A DNA stretch of 49,255 bases, from assembly GCA_003212415.1 (NCBI GenBank), contig QCPT01000009.1:1-49255 (forward strand). Reading direction: 5' to 3'. This DNA is from Pelagibacteraceae bacterium AG-439-F23. GTDB taxonomy: Bacteria; Pseudomonadota; Alphaproteobacteria; Pelagibacterales; Pelagibacteraceae. Position 1 is the stretch's first letter; every line of letters begins with the position of its first letter. This document shows, in pieces, positions 15,781 through 41,669 of the stretch. Below the pieces are notes generated by a model. That model saw only the letters and a list, made by a program, of their open reading frames with translations, was not told the origin of the DNA and did not search any database. Both the position numbers and the translations under genes were made by a program.

Positions 15781-15816
15781 AAAAAAAAGGCCTGACTATA
15801 TTTTAGTCAGGCCTTT
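15781..15816 (-). terminator. Hairpin with T-tract between binding-protein and permease genes
   Basis: A perfect 13-bp stem (15786-15798 paired with 15804-15816; core GGCCTGACTA) with a 5-base loop is followed on the minus strand by eight T residues (complement of 15781-15788, partly used in the stem). This has the full form of a Rho-independent terminator for the binding-protein transcript. The permease and ATPase genes lie downstream on the same strand and have no obvious separate promoter, so it probably acts as a partial terminator that makes the binding protein mRNA more abundant. Confidence 0.88.
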
Positions 15817-15826
15817 AAATTATATT

Positions 15827-16750
15827 TTATCTATAACCTTGAGCTGCCCACTTAATTACTTTGCTAGCATTGTCAGGAGTTACAAATCCAGGACCAGTCA
15901 TTACTACACCAGCTGGCATTGTTCCCCATCTCATATACTGTCCAAAGATAGCTATAGGCAAATACCCTTGTAGGTATTGTTGTTGGTCAATTAAAAACTC
16001 TACTTTACCTGCAGCAGCAGCTTTTAACATATTAGGAGACATATCAAATGTTCCAAGTCTTACTGAACCAACTTTACCAGCAGCTTCTAAAGCTTTAAGA
16101 GCCGCTTCACCAGATAAACCTGCGCCTAAAGTTAGGATAGTATCATATCCACCACCTAATTTAGCAGCAACAGCTTTTTGAATTTCTGTTGGGTCATTAG
16201 AAGTACCAAGTATATCAACACTTCCTCCGAAACCTTTTTTGAAACCCGCACATCTTCTATCAAGAGCTACGTTTCCAACCTCATGGTTAACGCATAGTGC
16301 TTTTTTTCCACCAGCAGCTTTCATTTTTTGTCCGCCACCAACACCAGCTTCAAACTCAGTTTGTCCAACGTGAGCACTGATACCTAAAGATGCATAATCA
16401 TCTGAACCAGAGTTCATTGAGATTACAGGTATACCAGCAGCGATTGCAGCTTTAACAGATTTTCCTAAAGCAGCAGCATCTGGTAATGTAATCACAATAC
16501 CTTTTGGTTTTTGCGATACAGCGTTATCAATTAGTTTTGCCATTTCAACCATGTCAAATGTTGCTGGAGCTGTATATTTGCAAGATATTCCCATATCTTT
16601 ACAACCAGCATCAACACCATTTTTAGCTACTGACCAAAAAGGGTCGTTAGCTTGACCGTGTGAAACAACAATTACATCTGTTGCCAATGCAGACACGGAC
16701 ATCAACGCCCAAGCAGCAATTGCCAACACAAAGTTTTTTAATGTTTTCAT
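15827..16750 (-). CDS. Sugar/polyol ABC transporter periplasmic binding protein
   Basis: This 307-residue periplasmic binding protein of the ribose/galactose (PBP type 1) family captures the substrate for the adjacent permease. A Sec signal peptide is clear: MKTLKN, a hydrophobic core, and cleavage after SALA at about residue 23. The mature N-terminus DVIVVSHGQANDPFWSVAKN is the usual first-domain strand and ligand region, and VGQTEFEAGV and DQQQYLQGYLPIA are further binding-protein blocks. It is less AT-rich in codon use and richer in Ala and Gly than its neighbours, as for abundant secreted proteins. A strong AGAGGG Shine-Dalgarno precedes it. Linkage to iolG, iolE and iolD suggests inositol; ribose or fructose remain possible. 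Confidence 0.92.
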   Translation of the reverse strand: MKTLKNFVLAIAAWALMSVSALATDVIVVSHGQANDPFWSVAKNGVDAGCKDMGISCKYTAPATFDMVEMAKLIDNAVSQKPKGIVITLPDAAALGKSVKAAIAAGIPVISMNSGSDDYASLGISAHVGQTEFEAGVGGGQKMKAAGGKKALCVNHEVGNVALDRRCAGFKKGFGGSVDILGTSNDPTEIQKAVAAKLGGGYDTILTLGAGLSGEAALKALEAAGKVGSVRLGTFDMSPNMLKAAAAGKVEFLIDQQQYLQGYLPIAIFGQYMRWGTMPAGVVMTGPGFVTPDNASKVIKWAAQGYR

Positions 16751-27837: not shown

Positions 27838-28809
27838 ATGAAAAAAAGTTTTAAACTTTTATTAGCAGCCGCAGTTCTTGTAACTGAAGTTTTTGTTGTA
27901 GCATTACCTATTTTAACTACATCTGCAAAAGCAGATGGAGCTATACAAGCGATTACTCACGCTGGTTTTGGTGGTGGTACTGACGTTACTACAAGAATGA
28001 TGCTTTTAAGAACTAGAAGATATCTTAAACAAGACATGCAACTAGTAAATAAAAAAGGTGGTGGTGGAGCAGCATCTATGGATTATATGATGACATTACC
28101 AGCAGATGGTCAACACACTTTAACTTGGACAACAGGTCATGCAGTTTCTATGGCGCTTGGAAAAACAAAAGTTAAGTTAAGTGATATGCAACCTTTAGCA
28201 AGAGGTACTGATGATCCTCAATTGTTTGTAGTGAATTGTAAAAATGATATTAAAGATGCTAAGAAATTTGTTAGTGCACAAAAATCAAAATCACTTAAAT
28301 ACGGAACTACTCACGTTGGTGGTATTGATGATGTAAGTGCGATTGCTTTTACAAAAAAAGGTAATTTAACAGATCCTACAATTGTAGCATACAAAGGTGT
28401 GGCACCAATTAAAACAAACTTAATCAAAGGCGATATAGATGTGGGTGTTTTAAACTTAGGTGAAGCAGTTACTGAAATCGAAGATGGGACATTATGTGTA
28501 GCAGTTGTTCTAGCTAGTAAAAGAATGGAAAAGCTAAGCAACGTTCCTACAGCAACTGAACTAGGTATCCCTGTGGTTCTTTCTACAGTAAGAGGATTTG
28601 TAACTAGAAAAGGTGTTCCTGCAGATAGAAAGAAACAATTAGAAGATGCGATGATAAAAGCTATGGAACATAAATATTTCCAAAGTTTTTTAACAGACAT
28701 TGGTCTTGATTCAACTAGTGTAGTTGGAGCTGATGAGTGGGGCAAACAAATGGAAGTTATGCTTGCAGAAATGACAGCTCAACTTAAAGCTTTGGGTTAC
28801 ATTAAGTAA
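27838..28809 (+). CDS. Tripartite tricarboxylate-type transporter binding protein (TctC/Bug family)
   Basis: This periplasmic solute-binding protein of the TctC/Bug family delivers an organic acid to the TctA-TctB membrane complex. The 323-residue precursor has a signal peptide (MKKSFK, hydrophobic core, cleavage near TSAKA-DG at about residue 32). The mature part has typical Bug blocks: FGGGTDVTTRMMLL, NKKGGGGAASMDYMM and VPTATELGIPVV. Gene context with sugar-acid enzymes suggests an aldonate or other sugar acid as ligand rather than citrate. It is followed by two RNA hairpins before the membrane genes. It is divergent from the PdxA-like gene across 69 bases. Confidence 0.9.
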   Translation: MKKSFKLLLAAAVLVTEVFVVALPILTTSAKADGAIQAITHAGFGGGTDVTTRMMLLRTRRYLKQDMQLVNKKGGGGAASMDYMMTLPADGQHTLTWTTGHAVSMALGKTKVKLSDMQPLARGTDDPQLFVVNCKNDIKDAKKFVSAQKSKSLKYGTTHVGGIDDVSAIAFTKKGNLTDPTIVAYKGVAPIKTNLIKGDIDVGVLNLGEAVTEIEDGTLCVAVVLASKRMEKLSNVPTATELGIPVVLSTVRGFVTRKGVPADRKKQLEDAMIKAMEHKYFQSFLTDIGLDSTSVVGADEWGKQMEVMLAEMTAQLKALGYIK

Positions 28810-28818
28810 TTTTAAATA

Positions 28819-28844
28819 GTACATTTTTTAAATGAATAATGTAC
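28819..28844 (+). promoter_or_regulatory. Small hairpin enclosing the TctB start codon
   Basis: GTACATT (28819-28825) pairs perfectly with AATGTAC (28838-28844). The loop of twelve bases contains the proposed ATG of the TctB gene (28832-28834). It may affect access to the start codon. The seven-base stem is A/T-rich and modest in strength. Confidence 0.4.
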
Positions 28845-29341
28845 GAACAAAAAAAAGGGCAAACAAAAAAAGTTTGCCCTTTTTTATTGGTGATGCTTTC
28901 AAAGTTTGTTTTGTAATAATAACTATTTCAGCAATTTTATTAATACAAACATTTTCATTTGATATAGTTCCACCGATCTTAAATAGAGGGATTCAGCCAG
29001 CAACATTTCCAAAAGCATTATTAGTATTAATAATAGTTCTAACTTTTGTAATATATTATTTATCTACAAAAAAACCTTGGAAGTTAGAAAAAAAATTACC
29101 TAAAGCTTTTTTTATAACTTTGTTTAATTTTATTTTATTTGTTTTTATTTCAAAATTTCTAGATTTTTTTCTTGCGATATCAATATTATCAATTTTTGTT
29201 TCCTACTACTGGGGAGAAAGAAGAGTATTATATTTATTACTAGTCAGTATTATTTTTCCAATAATTGTATTTATTTTTTTTGAAACAATATTGGGATTAA
29301 GATTTCCCGGTGGGATTATCACAAACTTATATTATTATTAA
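28832..29341 (+). CDS. TctB-family small membrane subunit
   Basis: This 169-residue protein with about four hydrophobic segments is the small TctB-like subunit of a tripartite tricarboxylate transporter. The family feature is a segment like PATFPKALLVLIIVLTFVIYY after the first membrane helix, and a final GLRFPGGIITNLYY typical of TctB. The first ~20 residues (MNNVRTKKRANKKSLPFF) are encoded by a strong terminator-like hairpin. No other ATG, GTG or TTG is available in frame before the first helix, so this ATG is kept. It is placed between the TctC and TctA genes as expected. Confidence 0.85.
   Translation: MNNVRTKKRANKKSLPFFIGDAFKVCFVIITISAILLIQTFSFDIVPPILNRGIQPATFPKALLVLIIVLTFVIYYLSTKKPWKLEKKLPKAFFITLFNFILFVFISKFLDFFLAISILSIFVSYYWGERRVLYLLLVSIIFPIIVFIFFETILGLRFPGGIITNLYYY
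28851..28885 (+). terminator. Terminator-like hairpin within the first codons of the TctB gene
   Basis: A perfect 14-bp stem (28851-28864 with 28872-28885; core GGGCAAAC/GTTTGCCC) has a seven-A loop and ends in six T residues, the form of a Rho-independent terminator. It starts 41 bases after the binding-protein stop codon and lies within the 5' coding end of the TctB gene, so translation there could open it. It probably gives partial termination favouring the binding protein mRNA. Confidence 0.85.
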
Positions 29342-29342
29342 G

Positions 29343-30815
29343 ATGGAAAATTTATCTTTAATGATGGCACCACTATTTAGTTCCAAACTATTAGCCGTTT
29401 TATTTTTTGGAACTATATTTGGTTTAATCCTAGGTGTATTGCCAGGGCTTGGACCTACTACTGGTGGTGCATTGATCTTACCTTTTACAATGACACTTGA
29501 TCCGCTTTCAGCCGTAGTTCTTTTAACTTCAATTTATTGTGCTGGTACTTATGGTGGTGCGATTACTGCAATTTTAATTAATACACCAGGAACACCGGCT
29601 GCCGCTGCAACTTGTTTGGATGGATATCCTTTAGCTCAAAAAGGAGAGGCTGGCAGAGCATTAGGAATGGCTACAGTTTCAAGTGTGGTAGGTGGAATAT
29701 TTAGTGTAATAGTATTAGTGTTTTTTGCCCCATTTCTTGCAAAATTAGCATACGAATTTGGTCAACCTGAATATTTTGCATTAGCTATTTTTGGTTTAAC
29801 AATGCTAGCTTCCATTGGAGATGGCAGTCCAATTAAAAATTTAATTGCGGGAGCTTTTGGAATTTTAATATCAACTGTAGGTAAAGATTTTATGACATCA
29901 ATTGATAGATTTACTTATGGTATTAATGAATTGTCAGAAGGTATTGGATTTATTCCAGTTGTTGTTGGATTGTTTGCAATAAGCGAAATGTTAACTCAAT
30001 CAACTTTATTAGATCAAGTTTTTAAAAGAGTTGCACTTAAGGCAGTCAAATTGCCAAGTTTGCAAGATTATAAATTGACTTGGAAAACTATAATAAGATC
30101 ATCTGGTATAGGATCTTTCATTGGAGTTTTACCTGCAGAAGGAGGTACAGTTGCTTCATTAATTGGATATTCTGAAGCAAAAAGATGGTCAAAAAATCCA
30201 GAGAAATTTGGCAAGGGATCTATTGAAGGTATTGCTGGAGCGGAAGCAGCAAATAACTCTGCAACTGGAGGGGCAATGGTTCCAACTCTTGCACTTGGAA
30301 TTCCAGGAAGTGCGACAACAGCTGTTATATTAACAGGATTAATTATTCATGGGGTAAGGCCAGGTCCTGATTTATTTAGAGAGCAACCAGACTTTCTTTA
30401 TGGAATTTTTGGATCAATGTTAATAGCCAATGTAATGTTTTTTATTCTAGGATTTTTTGGTGCAAAACTTTTTGCAAGAATAACTTTGGTGCCAAACAAA
30501 TTACTTTGGCCAATGATTTTTGCAGTTTCAGTTTGTGGAACTTATTCTCTAAGTCAATCGTTATTAGATGTTTGGATAATGCTTTTATTTGGAGTGATAG
30601 GTTTTTTTATGAGAAGATATGGTTTTTCAGTAGTACCAGTAATAATTGGTTTAATTTTAGGAGAACTGGTTGAAGGTACTTTAAGACAATCTTTAGTTAT
30701 TTTTGATGGAAATTGGTTAATGTTTTTAACTAGACCAATTGCTTTAACATTTTTTATTTTATCTTTAATTGCATTATGTTTTCCTTTATTAAAAAGAAAA
30801 AAAATAAAAAAATGA
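29343..30815 (+). CDS. TctA-family large membrane subunit of tripartite transporter
   Basis: This is the large integral membrane subunit of the tripartite importer, 490 residues from the ATG at 29343 (MENLSLMMAPL). A longer frame opens with GTG at 29310 inside the TctB gene, but MENL is the family-typical start and lies one base after the TctB stop. The TctA signature blocks are LGVLPGLGPTTGGALILPFT near residue 32, IYCAGTYGGAITAILINTPGT near 68, and a block with GAEAANNSATGGAMVPTLALGIPGSATTAV near 310. About twelve hydrophobic segments are visible. It overlaps the SDR gene by ATGA. Confidence 0.93.
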   Translation: MENLSLMMAPLFSSKLLAVLFFGTIFGLILGVLPGLGPTTGGALILPFTMTLDPLSAVVLLTSIYCAGTYGGAITAILINTPGTPAAAATCLDGYPLAQKGEAGRALGMATVSSVVGGIFSVIVLVFFAPFLAKLAYEFGQPEYFALAIFGLTMLASIGDGSPIKNLIAGAFGILISTVGKDFMTSIDRFTYGINELSEGIGFIPVVVGLFAISEMLTQSTLLDQVFKRVALKAVKLPSLQDYKLTWKTIIRSSGIGSFIGVLPAEGGTVASLIGYSEAKRWSKNPEKFGKGSIEGIAGAEAANNSATGGAMVPTLALGIPGSATTAVILTGLIIHGVRPGPDLFREQPDFLYGIFGSMLIANVMFFILGFFGAKLFARITLVPNKLLWPMIFAVSVCGTYSLSQSLLDVWIMLLFGVIGFFMRRYGFSVVPVIIGLILGELVEGTLRQSLVIFDGNWLMFLTRPIALTFFILSLIALCFPLLKRKKIKK

Positions 30816-31561
30816 TTAACTTTGATTTATCAAATAGAGTTGCAGTTGTGACTGGTGGTGCCCAAGGTTTTGGCTTTGCAATAACTGAGAGATTTATTCA
30901 ATCTGGAGCAAAAGTTATTATTTGGGATATAGATAAAAAAACTGCAGAAGAAGCAGTAAAAAAAATAAATTCAGAAAATTGTATATATCAAATTGTTGAT
31001 GTAAAAAATTTTGATCAAATAAGTAAAAATATGATTGAGGTAGAAAAAAAATTTAATAAAATTGATATTTTTATAAATAATGCTGGGATTACAGGAAGTA
31101 ATGCTACCATTGCCGAATACTCAGTCGATGAGTGGAAAAAAGTTATAGATTTAAATCTGAATTCAGTTTTTTATTGTTGCAAGGCTGTAGTTCCTTACAT
31201 GATTAAAAATAGCTATGGTAGAATAGTTAATATTGCTTCTATAGCAGGAAAAGAAGGAAACCCAAATGCAGGCGCTTATAGCAGTTCAAAAGCAGGAGTA
31301 ATTGGATTAACTAAATCTTTAGGAAAAGAACTGGCTCAAAAAAATATTGCAGTTAACTGTGTAACTCCAGCAGCAGCAAAAACAAGAATTTTTGATCAAA
31401 TGACAGAAGAGCATATAAATTATATGTTATCTAAGATTCCAAGAAATAAATTTGCAAAAGTTGAGGAGTTGGCATCACTTGTTGCTTGGTTATCCAGCGA
31501 AGAAAATTCTTTTTCCACAGCGGCTGTTTTTGATTTAAGTGGTGGTAGAGCAACATATTAG
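30812..31561 (+). CDS. Short-chain dehydrogenase/reductase
   Basis: This 249-residue SDR starts at the ATG at 30812, which overlaps the TctA stop as ATGA; an in-frame ATG at 30776 would add a lysine run and is rejected. The NAD(P)-binding motif is VTGGAQGFGFAI near residues 13-24, NNAGIT is near 90, and the catalytic Ser/Tyr/Lys are in NIASIAG and GAYSSSKAG near 143-165. The C-terminal segment has the usual DLSGGRATY. Co-transcription with the transporter, a ROK kinase and an FAH-type hydrolase suggests a sugar-acid dehydrogenase, for example 2-keto-3-deoxy-L-rhamnonate/fuconate 4-dehydrogenase. Confidence 0.9.
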   Translation: MINFDLSNRVAVVTGGAQGFGFAITERFIQSGAKVIIWDIDKKTAEEAVKKINSENCIYQIVDVKNFDQISKNMIEVEKKFNKIDIFINNAGITGSNATIAEYSVDEWKKVIDLNLNSVFYCCKAVVPYMIKNSYGRIVNIASIAGKEGNPNAGAYSSSKAGVIGLTKSLGKELAQKNIAVNCVTPAAAKTRIFDQMTEEHINYMLSKIPRNKFAKVEELASLVAWLSSEENSFSTAAVFDLSGGRATY

Positions 31562-31563
31562 TT

Positions 31564-32463
31564 ATGCAAATAGGTATAGATTTAGGAGCAACAAAAATAG
31601 AATATGTTTTATTAAATGATAAAGGAGATGAAATTATAAGAGATAGAGAAAAAACTCCACTTGATTATTCTGAAACCATAGATTCCATTAGTAATATAGT
31701 AAATAAATTGGACACAAAATATAATAATAAATTTGAAGTTGGTATATGTCATCCTGGGTCTATTTCAAATGAAACTGGATTGTTAAATAATGCAACTAAT
31801 TCTCCTTGGATGAATGAAAAATTATTTCAAAAAGATATAGCAAAAAAATTAAATAGAAATGTTTTTTGTGAAAATGATGCAAATTGTTTTACCCTATCAG
31901 AGTCAATTGATGGATCGGCAAAACACTATAATATTGTTTTTGGTGTTATTCTTGGATCAGGATGTGGAGGCGGGTTAGTGGTTAATAAAAAAATTGTAAA
32001 AGGAGCAAATAACTTAGCAGGAGAATGGGGACATAATCATTTACCTAGAGTTGATATCAATAGCTTAAAAAGAAAAACAAATATGAGAGATAGTCAAATA
32101 GAGAGTTTCATATCTGGATTAAGTTTGTCTAAAATATTTAAAGAAAAACATCATAAGGACTTAAAAGCATATGAAATTTTTGAATTATATAGAAAAAAAG
32201 ATATTGAAGCTGAAAAAATTATTGATGAATATAAAGAAAATTTATCTATTTCTCTATGTTCGTTAATTAACATTATTGATCCTGATGCCATAGTATTTGG
32301 GGGAGGAGTTTCGAATGAAATTAGTTTTTTAGATGAAGTAAAAAAAAAAATTGAAAAGTTTTTAAAAGTAGGAAAATTAAATACTGCGTTAATTAAGCCA
32401 ATGTATGGAGATGCCAGCGGTGTTAGAGGTGCTGCAAGATTAGGAAGAAAAATAAATTATTAA
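31564..32463 (+). CDS. ROK-family sugar kinase with degenerate zinc motif
   Basis: This 299-residue ROK protein probably phosphorylates a sugar. The ATP-binding N-terminus is GIDLGATKIEYVLL, the catalytic Asp lies in CENDANCFTLSES near residue 104, GVILGSGCGGGLVVNKK is near 128, and the GEWGHNHLP block near 152 carries the usual zinc-ligand His. The zinc cysteine motif normally reading CxCGxxGCxE is replaced by KRKTNMRDSQIE, so all three cysteines are gone although the following ESFISG is intact. There is no N-terminal DNA-binding domain, so it is a kinase and not a NagC-type repressor. It lies between the SDR and FAH-type genes. Confidence 0.87.
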   Translation: MQIGIDLGATKIEYVLLNDKGDEIIRDREKTPLDYSETIDSISNIVNKLDTKYNNKFEVGICHPGSISNETGLLNNATNSPWMNEKLFQKDIAKKLNRNVFCENDANCFTLSESIDGSAKHYNIVFGVILGSGCGGGLVVNKKIVKGANNLAGEWGHNHLPRVDINSLKRKTNMRDSQIESFISGLSLSKIFKEKHHKDLKAYEIFELYRKKDIEAEKIIDEYKENLSISLCSLINIIDPDAIVFGGGVSNEISFLDEVKKKIEKFLKVGKLNTALIKPMYGDASGVRGAARLGRKINY

Positions 32464-32478
32464 TGATATAATAAAATT

Positions 32479-33321
32479 ATGAAATTATTAAGAATCGGAA
32501 GTTTAGGAAAAGAAAAACCTGTTGTTTTAGACAAAGATGGAAAATATAAAGATTTAAGTTCGCATATAGAAGATTTAAATCCAAATAATTTAAATTTTGA
32601 AACTTTGTCTAAAATTCAAGATTTAGATTATTCATCTCTGCCAGAAATTTCTAAAACTGAAAGAATAGGTTCTTGTATATCTAGACCAGGTAAATTTATA
32701 GCTATAGGTTTAAACTTTTCAGATCATGCTGCAGAAACTGGAGCAAAACCTCCATCTGAACCTATTATGTTCATGAAGGCCACAAGTTCAATCTGTGGAC
32801 CAAATGATAATATAGAAATAGTTTCTGGATCAAAAAAATTAGATTGGGAAGTTGAACTCGGAGTTGTTATTGGAAAAAATGCAAAACATATTTCCGAAGA
32901 TCAGTCGCAAGATCATATTTTAGGATATTGTTTAGTAAATGATGTAAGTGAAAGAGAATGGCAAATAGAAAAAATGGGACAATGGGTAAAAGGTAAATCG
33001 CACGACACCTATGGTCCAATTGGTCCATATTTGGTTACTAAAGATGAAATTAAAGATATAAACAATCTAGACATGTCTTTAGATTTAAATGGTAAAAGAA
33101 TGCAATCAGGAAACACTAGTACAATGATTTTTAATGTAGACATTATAGTATCATATGTAAGTAAGTTTATGTCTTTACAAGCTGGAGATATAATTACAAC
33201 TGGAACGCCACCAGGTGTTGGAATGGGAAAAAAACCTCAAATATTTTTAAAAGAAGGAGATAAATTAAAATTAACAATTGATAATTTAGGTGAACAAAAC
33301 TCTCAAATAGTAGCAATATAA
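32479..33321 (+). CDS. Fumarylacetoacetate hydrolase-family protein
   Basis: This 280-residue FAH-fold enzyme probably hydrolyses a 2,4-dioxo acid. Visible blocks are KFIAIGLNFSDHAAETGAK near residue 73, DWEVELGVVIGKNAKH near 121 with metal-ligand Glu residues, a DVSEREWQ segment, a KGKSHDTYGPIGPYLVT segment near 172-188, and TTGTPPGVGMGKKP near 239. The KGKSxDTxGPxGP segment is typical of hydrolases annotated as ureidoglycolate lyase or 2,4-diketo-3-deoxy-L-fuconate/rhamnonate hydrolase. Placed after the SDR gene, it could complete an oxidative route releasing pyruvate and lactate. It is separated by three bases from ppc. Confidence 0.88.
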   Translation: MKLLRIGSLGKEKPVVLDKDGKYKDLSSHIEDLNPNNLNFETLSKIQDLDYSSLPEISKTERIGSCISRPGKFIAIGLNFSDHAAETGAKPPSEPIMFMKATSSICGPNDNIEIVSGSKKLDWEVELGVVIGKNAKHISEDQSQDHILGYCLVNDVSEREWQIEKMGQWVKGKSHDTYGPIGPYLVTKDEIKDINNLDMSLDLNGKRMQSGNTSTMIFNVDIIVSYVSKFMSLQAGDIITTGTPPGVGMGKKPQIFLKEGDKLKLTIDNLGEQNSQIVAI

Positions 33322-40064: not shown

Positions 40065-41627
40065 ATGAAACCTAAAAATTTGCTAAGAATTTTACTGGCA
40101 TTTTTATTTGTTTTTGCATCAACGCAAACTTTTGCAAAAACTATCAAATGGTCAATGCAAGGAGATAGTTTAACACTAGATCCACATGCACAAAATGAAG
40201 GACCTACTACACAAGTATCAAGACAAGTCTATGAAGCTTTAGTTACAAGAGGATTAGATATGTCAATTGGACCTCAACTTGCAACTAAATGGGCAACTGT
40301 TGACGAAAATACTTGGTATTTTTACTTAAGAGAAGATGTAAAGTTTTCTAATGGACAGGCAATGACATCAGCAGATGTTGTGTATAGTATATTAAGAGCA
40401 AAACAACCTACATCAGATTTTAAAGAGTATATTAGTACAATTTCAGGAGTTAAAGCAATTGATGATTACACTGTTCAAATTAAAACAAGCAAACCAAATC
40501 CAATTCTTTTAAACCAATTGTCAAATATTTTTATAATGTCTAAACAATGGTGTGCAGATAATTTTGCGATTGTTCCGCAGAATTGGGATGCATCTCAAGA
40601 AACTTTCTCGGCTACTAATGCTATGGGAACTGGACCATTTAAAATTACTTTAAGAGAACCTAATACTAAAACGGTTTTCAAAAGAAATAAAAAATGGTGG
40701 GGATCAATGAAAGACAGCAAAGTAACTGAAATACATTTACTTCCAATTAAGAATGCAGCTACTAGAGTTGCAGCTTTATTATCTGGAGAAATTGATTTAG
40801 TTACTGATGCTCCTGTACAAGACTTAGCGCGTATTACAGCTTCAGCTGGACATAAAGTTGAAAGCACTCCACAAATGCGTACAATATTTCTTGGAATGGA
40901 CCAAGCTGCTGACAAATTAAGAACAGGTAACACTGGTGATAACCCATTTAAGAAGTTAGCCGTAAGACAAGCTCTTTATCAAGCAATTGATATAGAGGCT
41001 ATTAAGAAAAAAGTTATGAGAGGCTTAAGTGAACCTGCGGGAATTATAACTTTCCCAGGTGTAAATGGATATACTGAGGATCTAGATAAAAGATTGCCTT
41101 ATGATGTTGGTGCAGCTAAAAAATTATTAGCTGACGCTGGTTATCCGAATGGCTTTGAAGTTGAACTAAGATGTCCAAATGATAGATATGTAAATGACGA
41201 AGCTATTTGCACAGCTGTTGTTGGAATGTTAGGAAAAATTGGAGTTAAAGTAAATTTATTTGCTCAAACTAAAAGTAAACACTTCAAAGAACTTAAAGAC
41301 AACCAAGGTGATTTTTATATGCTAGGATGGGGTGTACCTACCTTAGACAGTCACTATGTGTTCCACTATTTATATGAGTCTGGAGCAAGTTGGAATAAAG
41401 TTAACTTTAGTAATTCAGATGTCGACGCCGCAATAAGAGTAATGGAAGGCGAAGTTGATTTAGACAAGAGAAATGCTGCTATAGCAAAAGCTTGGAAAAT
41501 TGTAAAAGACGATATTTCTTATCTTCCTTTACACCACCAAGTGATTTCTTGGGCATCTAAAAGCGATGTTAATGTTCCAATAAGACCGAATAACGAACCG
41601 TTATTCCGTTTTTCAAGCTTTAACTAA
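40065..41627 (+). CDS. Oligopeptide-type ABC transporter substrate-binding protein (family 5)
   Basis: This 520-residue periplasmic binding protein is of the DppA/OppA/NikA (SBP_bac_5) family. The signal peptide (MKPKNLLRILLAFLFVFAS, cleavage after TFA near residue 25) is clear. Family blocks follow: DSLTLDPHAQNEGPTTQVSR near 34, WYFYLREDVKFSNGQAMTSA near 90 and MGTGPFKI near 187. The C-terminal region has DVDAAIRVMEGEVDLDKRNA near 465. The ligand may be peptides or a modified amine; the family is broad. It is followed by a strong hairpin before the permease genes. Confidence 0.93.
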   Translation: MKPKNLLRILLAFLFVFASTQTFAKTIKWSMQGDSLTLDPHAQNEGPTTQVSRQVYEALVTRGLDMSIGPQLATKWATVDENTWYFYLREDVKFSNGQAMTSADVVYSILRAKQPTSDFKEYISTISGVKAIDDYTVQIKTSKPNPILLNQLSNIFIMSKQWCADNFAIVPQNWDASQETFSATNAMGTGPFKITLREPNTKTVFKRNKKWWGSMKDSKVTEIHLLPIKNAATRVAALLSGEIDLVTDAPVQDLARITASAGHKVESTPQMRTIFLGMDQAADKLRTGNTGDNPFKKLAVRQALYQAIDIEAIKKKVMRGLSEPAGIITFPGVNGYTEDLDKRLPYDVGAAKKLLADAGYPNGFEVELRCPNDRYVNDEAICTAVVGMLGKIGVKVNLFAQTKSKHFKELKDNQGDFYMLGWGVPTLDSHYVFHYLYESGASWNKVNFSNSDVDAAIRVMEGEVDLDKRNAAIAKAWKIVKDDISYLPLHHQVISWASKSDVNVPIRPNNEPLFRFSSFN

Positions 41628-41635
41628 ACTATTAA

Positions 41636-41669
41636 TTACAAGCCCTTTAGCAAACTAAAGGGCTTGTAA
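41636..41669 (+). terminator. Strong hairpin without T-tract after the peptide-binding-protein gene
   Basis: A perfect 15-bp stem (41636-41650 with 41655-41669; core CAAGCCCTTTAG) and a four-base CAAA loop start eight bases after the binding-protein stop codon. It is not followed by a run of T, so termination may be weak or Rho-assisted. It could instead protect the 3' end of the binding-protein mRNA or serve as a processing site, as known for intercistronic hairpins in other transporter operons. Confidence 0.8.

Follow-up and report, generated by a model that had tools for sequence, protein, structure and literature searches.

What is a hairpin of the intrinsic-terminator type doing inside the first codons of a transporter gene, and does it act as a switch or set a ratio between gene products? 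The question is raised by a contig of Pelagibacteraceae bacterium AG-439-F23 (QCPT01000009.1), whose 49,255 nucleotides are referred to here as the window. Bacteria of the SAR11 group number among the Earth's most abundant cells and rely on transporters that use binding proteins. In the window, an operon for a tripartite tricarboxylate transporter (TTT) begins with tctC, which encodes the solute-binding protein (SBP; 27838–28809, Pfam TctC E 1.2e-16), followed by tctB for the small membrane subunit (28832–29341, an ORF with a Pfam TctB match of E 4.8e-12 over residues 26–159 of 169). The terminator-type hairpin in tctB is followed 3′ by tctA for the large membrane subunit (29343–30815, Pfam TctA E 3e-159) and, further 3′, by genes for an SDR dehydrogenase, a ROK kinase and an FAA-hydrolase (30812–33321; Pfam adh_short, ROK and FAA_hydrolase), all in the same direction on the plus strand.

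Among the best 80 of 283 TctC matches, the nearest relatives of the window are Pelagibacteraceae/Pelagibacterales genomes, with TctC identities of 94–97% in 70 loci and 86–87% in the last ten. A TctB match is found in 60 of 201 genomes of the genus, some of these matches being paralogues, and the gene is not universal.

Anatomy of the tctC–tctB junction

Two hairpins occupy tctB codons 1–19 and the bases just before them. The larger is an intrinsic-terminator-type hairpin with a U-run that covers codons 7–18 (28851–28885, plus strand); it can be read directly from the letters and is supported by fold prediction and conservation. Its perfect 14-bp stem joins AAAAAAGGGCAAAC (28851–28864) to GTTTGCCCTTTTTT (28872–28885) across a 7-nt loop, and begins 16 nt past the ATG codon and 41 nt past the tctC stop. 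The fold is predicted at −26.5 kcal/mol (z = −5.8), with none of 200 shuffles as good. The six Ts are themselves base-paired, at the end of the stem, and do not form a tail beyond it, the next bases being ATTGG, and a working terminator would consist of an 8-bp GGGCAAAC core followed by U6.

A simple terminator scan reports 28851–28885 for the minus strand alone, since the stem takes up the plus-strand T run, and the scan's count for the 9.5-kb region (four found against 3.4 expected) is not unusual. No stem with 14 bp or more, 5 or more G-C pairs and a loop of 3–8 nt arose in 20 Markov-simulated windows (one strand), and the element, given its conservation, is beyond chance. Read on the minus strand, 28851–28885 is a consensus terminator too, with no minus-strand gene just upstream there.

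The smaller hairpin (28819–28844, plus strand) pairs GTACATT (28819–28825) with AATGTAC (28838–28844), and its arms flank the ATG start codon of tctB (28832–28834), whose G sits in a weak inner pair of the predicted fold. The GTACATT/AATGTAC motif occurs only once in the window's own genome. Both hairpins, and the position of the larger one between the binding-protein gene and the rest of the operon, had been described in the first-pass annotation and are borne out here. All hairpin codons precede the recognised Pfam TctB domain, which starts at residue 26.

Conservation of the pairing and of the reading frame

Orthologous junctions were collected by protein similarity alone, with the hairpins playing no part in the search, and both hairpins are present in all 91 junctions found, the small one with its exact stem. 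The same layout occurs in 30 further loci (29 plus L046), giving a total of 121, a set selected on the motif. Since the two sources of loci may hold some genomes twice, distinct sequences were used for counts.

The terminator stem shows compensatory changes: over 72 distinct sequences, four of its 14 pairs have changed on both sides, in six cells, and 99.3% of cells are paired, a level reached by none of 500 shuffles. A control with the pairing slid by +2 had a covariation score of 0.040 against 0.029 for the true pairing, but only 63% of its cells paired. In the small stem, all five aligned pairs are without variation in the same 72 sequences, an invariance that is neither for nor against pairing; the stem is, judged from the alignment, constrained as sequence, because its 5′ arm is non-coding yet invariant. 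A palindromic DNA-binding site at the small hairpin was considered and is disfavoured: the spacing between the 5′ arm and the ATG varies from 3 to 9 nt, which speaks against a fixed dimer site, though the arms are invariant.

A sequence that is invariant rather than covarying would also suit a small regulatory RNA, made from the 3′ region of tctC and ending at the terminator, of which GTACATT/AATGTAC would be the working part; the terminator with its long U tail would fit such an RNA, as would weak Rfam matches, some of them to sRNAs. These seven matches (E up to 1) lie below the gathering score, the best at 28.1 bits against a gathering score of 50, and no Rfam family reaches that score; moreover, a protein site could equally explain the invariance of the stem, and there is no promoter evidence for an independent RNA. 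This origin of the element is very improbable.

The ATG lies between the arms of the small hairpin in all 91 loci and keeps its spacing to the body of TctB. The distance separating the tctC stop from the ATG varies (20–26 or 28 nt in the 91 loci, and 18 nt in L113–L117, the most distant loci of the same layout); the interval between the ATG and the TctB body is 51 or 54 nt in all 91, both divisible by three, and indels in this interval come in multiples of three only, despite its A and T runs. No other in-frame ATG or GTG occurs in tctB codons 2–26 in any of the 121 loci. TTG, as another candidate start, lies inside the 3′ arm in all 121, at codon 26 in two of 121, and just upstream of the ATG in six of 91. 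A TctB start downstream of 28885, which the first-pass annotation had named as the finding that would reduce the element to a plain intergenic terminator, is therefore rejected. The TTG inside the 3′ arm could in principle serve as the start, which would leave the kept upstream frame unexplained. Should the ATG prove correct, any annotation with TctB beginning past the hairpin would be in error.

Within the frame so kept, codons 8–19 are each represented by one codon in nearly all of 98 distinct sequences, and include CCC and TTG, both rare in codons 20–51; the freeze ends at codon 19, and synonymous variation begins at codon 20. Distinct changes were counted over 87 distinct sequences that do not carry the one-codon insertion. 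Three of 16 changes in codons 8–18 are synonymous (17% expected by chance), as are two of 15 in the linker codons 5–7 and 52 of 99 in codons 22–50 (23% expected). The first 19 residues of TctB are hardly constrained as protein, while the constraint on the stems acts at the nucleotide level; it appears that the RNA is selected, with the tctB frame there merely kept open. The orthologue alignment proposed in the first-pass annotation thus upholds the hairpin pairing and the open frame, but gives the encoded residues no protein-level constraint. In this start-embedded form, regulatory RNA and code share the same bases, in codons that are kept open and otherwise ignored by protein selection.

Two further observations concern reading frames. 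An ORF of about 24 aa in the +1 frame (28839–28916, MYxxKKGQTKVCPFF...) starts at the ATG in the AATGTAC arm and is probably due to chance; each of the four changes that the most distant clade shows in the stem is synonymous in this frame, the bias is weak over distinct changes (8 of 16 at that codon position), and a second coding frame is not claimed. In L131 (genome G111), tctB is in frame through the hairpins and its frame is broken further on, through either a pseudogene or an assembly error.

Hairpins behind other solute-binding protein genes

The three strongest hairpins of the window (13–15 bp, with 5–6 G-C pairs) each lie directly 3′ of an SBP gene, with a membrane component next. Besides the tctB element, they are a 15-bp hairpin (41636–41669, plus strand) after an SBP_bac_5 gene (40065–41627) and a 13-bp hairpin with a U-run (15786–15816, minus strand) after a Peripla_BP_4 gene (15827–16750), both intergenic and both before a permease gene; the former lacks a U-run on the plus strand.

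The pattern extends beyond the window. A survey of both strands covered 20 stretches of 20 kb from one complete genome of the genus together with the window (449,255 bases, 423 crude ORF calls), a strong hairpin being one with at least 10 Watson-Crick pairs and at least 4 G-C pairs. It found 21 strong hairpins, two of which need G-U pairs on the minus strand; 13 follow SBP genes (10 of 18 when the window is left out). The remaining eight comprise four inside ORFs, two between converging ORFs, one after a rhodopsin gene and one after a GcvT-like gene. For nine of the ten non-window SBP hairpins the next gene was scanned (seven BPD_transp_1 permeases, one DctM fusion and one SDR), while that of the tenth lies beyond the stretch. 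When the starting point is instead the 18 SBP genes that Pfam searches for four families gave in the sampled genome, 15 have a hairpin with 8 or more Watson-Crick pairs no more than 110 nt past the stop, and three do not; six of these 15 are also among the 13 of the survey. In the same-strand cases among the 15, an ATG start is read 3′ of the hairpin, and L255 and L256 have an earlier in-frame GTG or TTG. A hairpin stands behind the SBP gene at 29 of 30 DctP loci from the genus; at the remaining one (L172), situated at a contig end, the ORF chosen may not be an SBP. Many of the SBP loci counted are close relatives and not independent.

One hairpin in the survey, on the minus strand of L232 (5253–5290), is very like that of tctB, with 15 Watson-Crick pairs (GGGCAgGTAC/GTACTTGCCC) and a U-run; it lies 3′ of a rhodopsin gene and 5′ of a further ORF on that strand. 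The wider rule may be one of hairpins behind very highly expressed genes.

Several SAR11 SBP hairpins are without a U-run (L164–L171, L175–L181, L123, L125–L127 and, on the plus strand, the window's hairpin at 41636), and protection or processing may be their main function, which could hold at tctB too. The hairpin would then be a stability element only, which blocks 3′ exonucleases after cleavage of the full-length mRNA and so stabilises its tctC part, with no termination involved. The paired state of the U6 in the window is in keeping with this account, which is nonetheless quite unlikely for tctB, where the layout is that of a canonical terminator and a T-run is present in all 121 loci of the clade (T6, T8 or T9, with T9 in 108 of 121). 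In six of these loci (L175 and L177–L181), very long stems of 17–20 pairs, also without a U-run, follow TRAP SBP genes and are likely of a non-terminating type.

Start-embedded hairpins in other TctB clades

Beside the window's clade A, three further SAR11 clades of TctB (B, C and D) have hairpins embedded at the beginning of the gene. In clade B (25 loci in five genera; L144, L137, L153, L261 and L262 are among its members), a GTG start lies inside the 5′ arm of the stem, which in most loci also holds a Shine-Dalgarno-like AGGA, and the stem has a loop of 19–23 nt and a T-rich tail within the gene; an operon of this clade is present in the window's own genome and in the sampled genome (L261, L262; read by eye). 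Over 23 distinct sequences, 98.1% of clade B cells pair, and seven cells in two pairs have changed on both sides, a covariation that is only suggestive, with two such pairs reached by 203 of 500 shuffles and eight such cells found when the pairing is slid by +2. Clade C (4 loci) has its arms at about codons 2–5 and 14–18, without a U-run. In clade D (3 loci: L128, L129 and L162) the hairpin lies at about codons 9–19, and the tctB start overlaps the tctC stop in two of the three loci (gap −1) or lies 3 nt after it. In clade E (5 loci) the hairpin is intergenic.

The location of the start ahead of the hairpin or within it in clades A to D, the overlap of tctC stop and tctB start in clade D and the placement of the clade A ATG within an invariant hairpin all favour a translation-controlled attenuator, in which ribosomes that come from tctC or initiate at the tctB ATG would melt the terminator, so that transcription of tctBA and the catabolic genes would depend on the state of translation. 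Upstream of tctB, a Shine-Dalgarno-like triplet (AGG, GGA, GAG or GGG) is absent from all 42 distinct clade A stretches, which points the same way, an argument weakened by tctA and the SDR and FAA genes of the window, which likewise lack one.

Several results make such an attenuator unlikely. In the window, neither a mutually exclusive antiterminator nor a coupling device was found: no alternative pairing to the 5′ arm or loop of the terminator is available from 28600–28850 (none of at least 7 bp with 2 G-C pairs), and the predicted accessibility of the ATG is equal in the pre-terminator, terminated and read-through RNAs. In the remaining SBP operons examined in SAR11, the hairpin precedes the start. 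In the E. coli tR2 constructs reported by Li et al. (PMC4824070), a terminator 30 bp past the AUG loses only about 10% of its efficiency through translation and one 28 bp past a stop is about 90% efficient; the tctB stem begins 41 nt past the tctC stop. As reported, these efficiencies argue that the tctB terminator would work though it is in frame, and that translation is not its main control. The proposal in the first-pass annotation that ribosomes at the ATG make the hairpin a switch is thus not upheld, given also how common hairpins after SBP genes are in the genus.

A related account treats the element as a start-codon-first terminator of SAR11 TTT operons: the tctB start, placed within a conserved hairpin in clade A and across one in clade B, would be reached by ribosomes from tctC and coupled to the terminator in the first codons, so that translation of TctC would set the fraction of polymerases entering tctBA and the catabolic genes. 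It is unlikely; tctB may nevertheless depend on ribosomes from tctC, lying 20–28 nt past the tctC stop in the 91 loci and having no Shine-Dalgarno-like triplet. If the coupling were true, the ratio of binding protein to permease would respond to growth or amino-acid supply.

Probable function as a partial terminator

The reading preferred here is that the tctB hairpin is quite probably the form that the internal terminator behind an SBP gene takes in SAR11, and that it keeps TctC above its membrane partners. It is a compact version of a control known from other bacteria, and its in-frame placement in the next gene is a new variant.

We infer a mechanism in which RNA polymerase leaving tctC would terminate at the hairpin most of the time, and in which the stem would also cap the short mRNA against 3′ exonucleases, so that TctC would accumulate in excess, while a read-through minority would carry tctBA and the catabolic genes. 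Ribosomes arriving from tctC could start tctB before the stem folds in their way, and the small hairpin that encloses the ATG, invariant in its stem, probably keeps initiation low on terminated mRNAs, which have no stop codon. Because the tctB start precedes the terminator, every TctB mRNA would be a product of read-through, and since TctB would come from read-through RNA only, termination would therefore have to be partial or conditional. That hairpins so often follow SBP genes in the genus points to constitutive ratio-setting.

Several observations count against this reading. The window's U6 pairs with A6, some SAR11 SBP hairpins lack a U-run, three of the 18 SBP genes have no hairpin, eight of the 21 strong hairpins lie elsewhere than behind an SBP gene, and the +2 slide of the stem has the higher covariation score. 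Termination past a start codon would also give mRNAs without a stop codon, a cost that plain ratio-setting does not need. A complete terminator combined with a separate tctB promoter was also considered and judged unlikely, as the start codon precedes the terminator and promoter-like matches number 46 against 50.9 in shuffles. That most of the SBP genes examined are followed by a hairpin (15 of 18 in one genome) suggests one simple rule for SBP excess in small genomes, a rule that could be used for reading expression ratios from sequence.

Comparison with known systems

In pyrBI-type ribosome-coupled attenuators the reading frame spans the terminator. The tctB frame does so too, but there is no leader peptide, the frame is that of the structural gene itself, and no sensing feature was found. 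SBP excess can also arise from processed stem-loops or from a hairpin such as the REP element between malE and malF, which is a stability element without a U-run. The tctB hairpin likewise lies between the genes for an SBP and a membrane component, and differs in its U-run and its coding position.

The closest parallel is provided by Ruminiclostridium cellulolyticum, in which stem-loops after SBP genes are reported to terminate 20.7–96.1% of transcription, set the ratios of SBP to translocator and give an excess of SBP (Wu et al. 2022, PMC9045158). As with those terminators of ABC importers, the tctB element is a single stem-loop right after the SBP gene with A-tract/U-tract pairing, no antiterminator and a probable SBP excess; unlike the intergenic terminators of ABC operons described there, it belongs to a TTT operon of an alphaproteobacterium and lies in frame in the next gene, whose start is upstream, in a second, invariant hairpin. 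Measured against internal terminators of SBP operons in general, it has the stem-loop between SBP and membrane subunit and the U-run but not the intergenic position, and is called a variant rather than a plain member because it lies in codons 7–18.

Terminators within the first 100 bp of a coding region, as in the tR2 constructs (PMC4824070), share with the tctB element a position shortly past the AUG and a nonstop mRNA as by-product; those constructs are artificial, whereas the tctB element is natural, conserved and recurrent in one gene family. ORF-internal 3′ ends have been described in E. coli (PMC7815308). Structured RNA motifs of Cand. Pelagibacter ubique (PMC2704228) come from the same bacterial group and have conserved stems, one of them with a poly-U tail; the words tctC and tripartite are absent from the main text of that report. 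Likewise, the words terminator, stem-loop and hairpin are absent from the main text of a TRAP/TTT review (PMC5812351). The literature searched, with many subscription journals lying outside it, showed no natural conserved terminator in the start of a gene that follows an SBP gene, and no report of SAR11 SBP hairpins.

TctB loci outside SAR11

Beyond SAR11, the best 30 class-level TctB matches from 114 genomes were taken, of which 26 were testable and four were skipped; the loci were chosen by their TctB match, irrespective of the gene before it. Five of the 26 have a stem of at least 9 Watson-Crick pairs before the start, and one (L197) has a stem of at least 9 Watson-Crick pairs that reaches into the coding start, without a U-run. 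At L217, an 8-pair stem with a T-rich tail (ATCTATTT) lies inside the coding start, a weak case of the start-embedded form outside SAR11.
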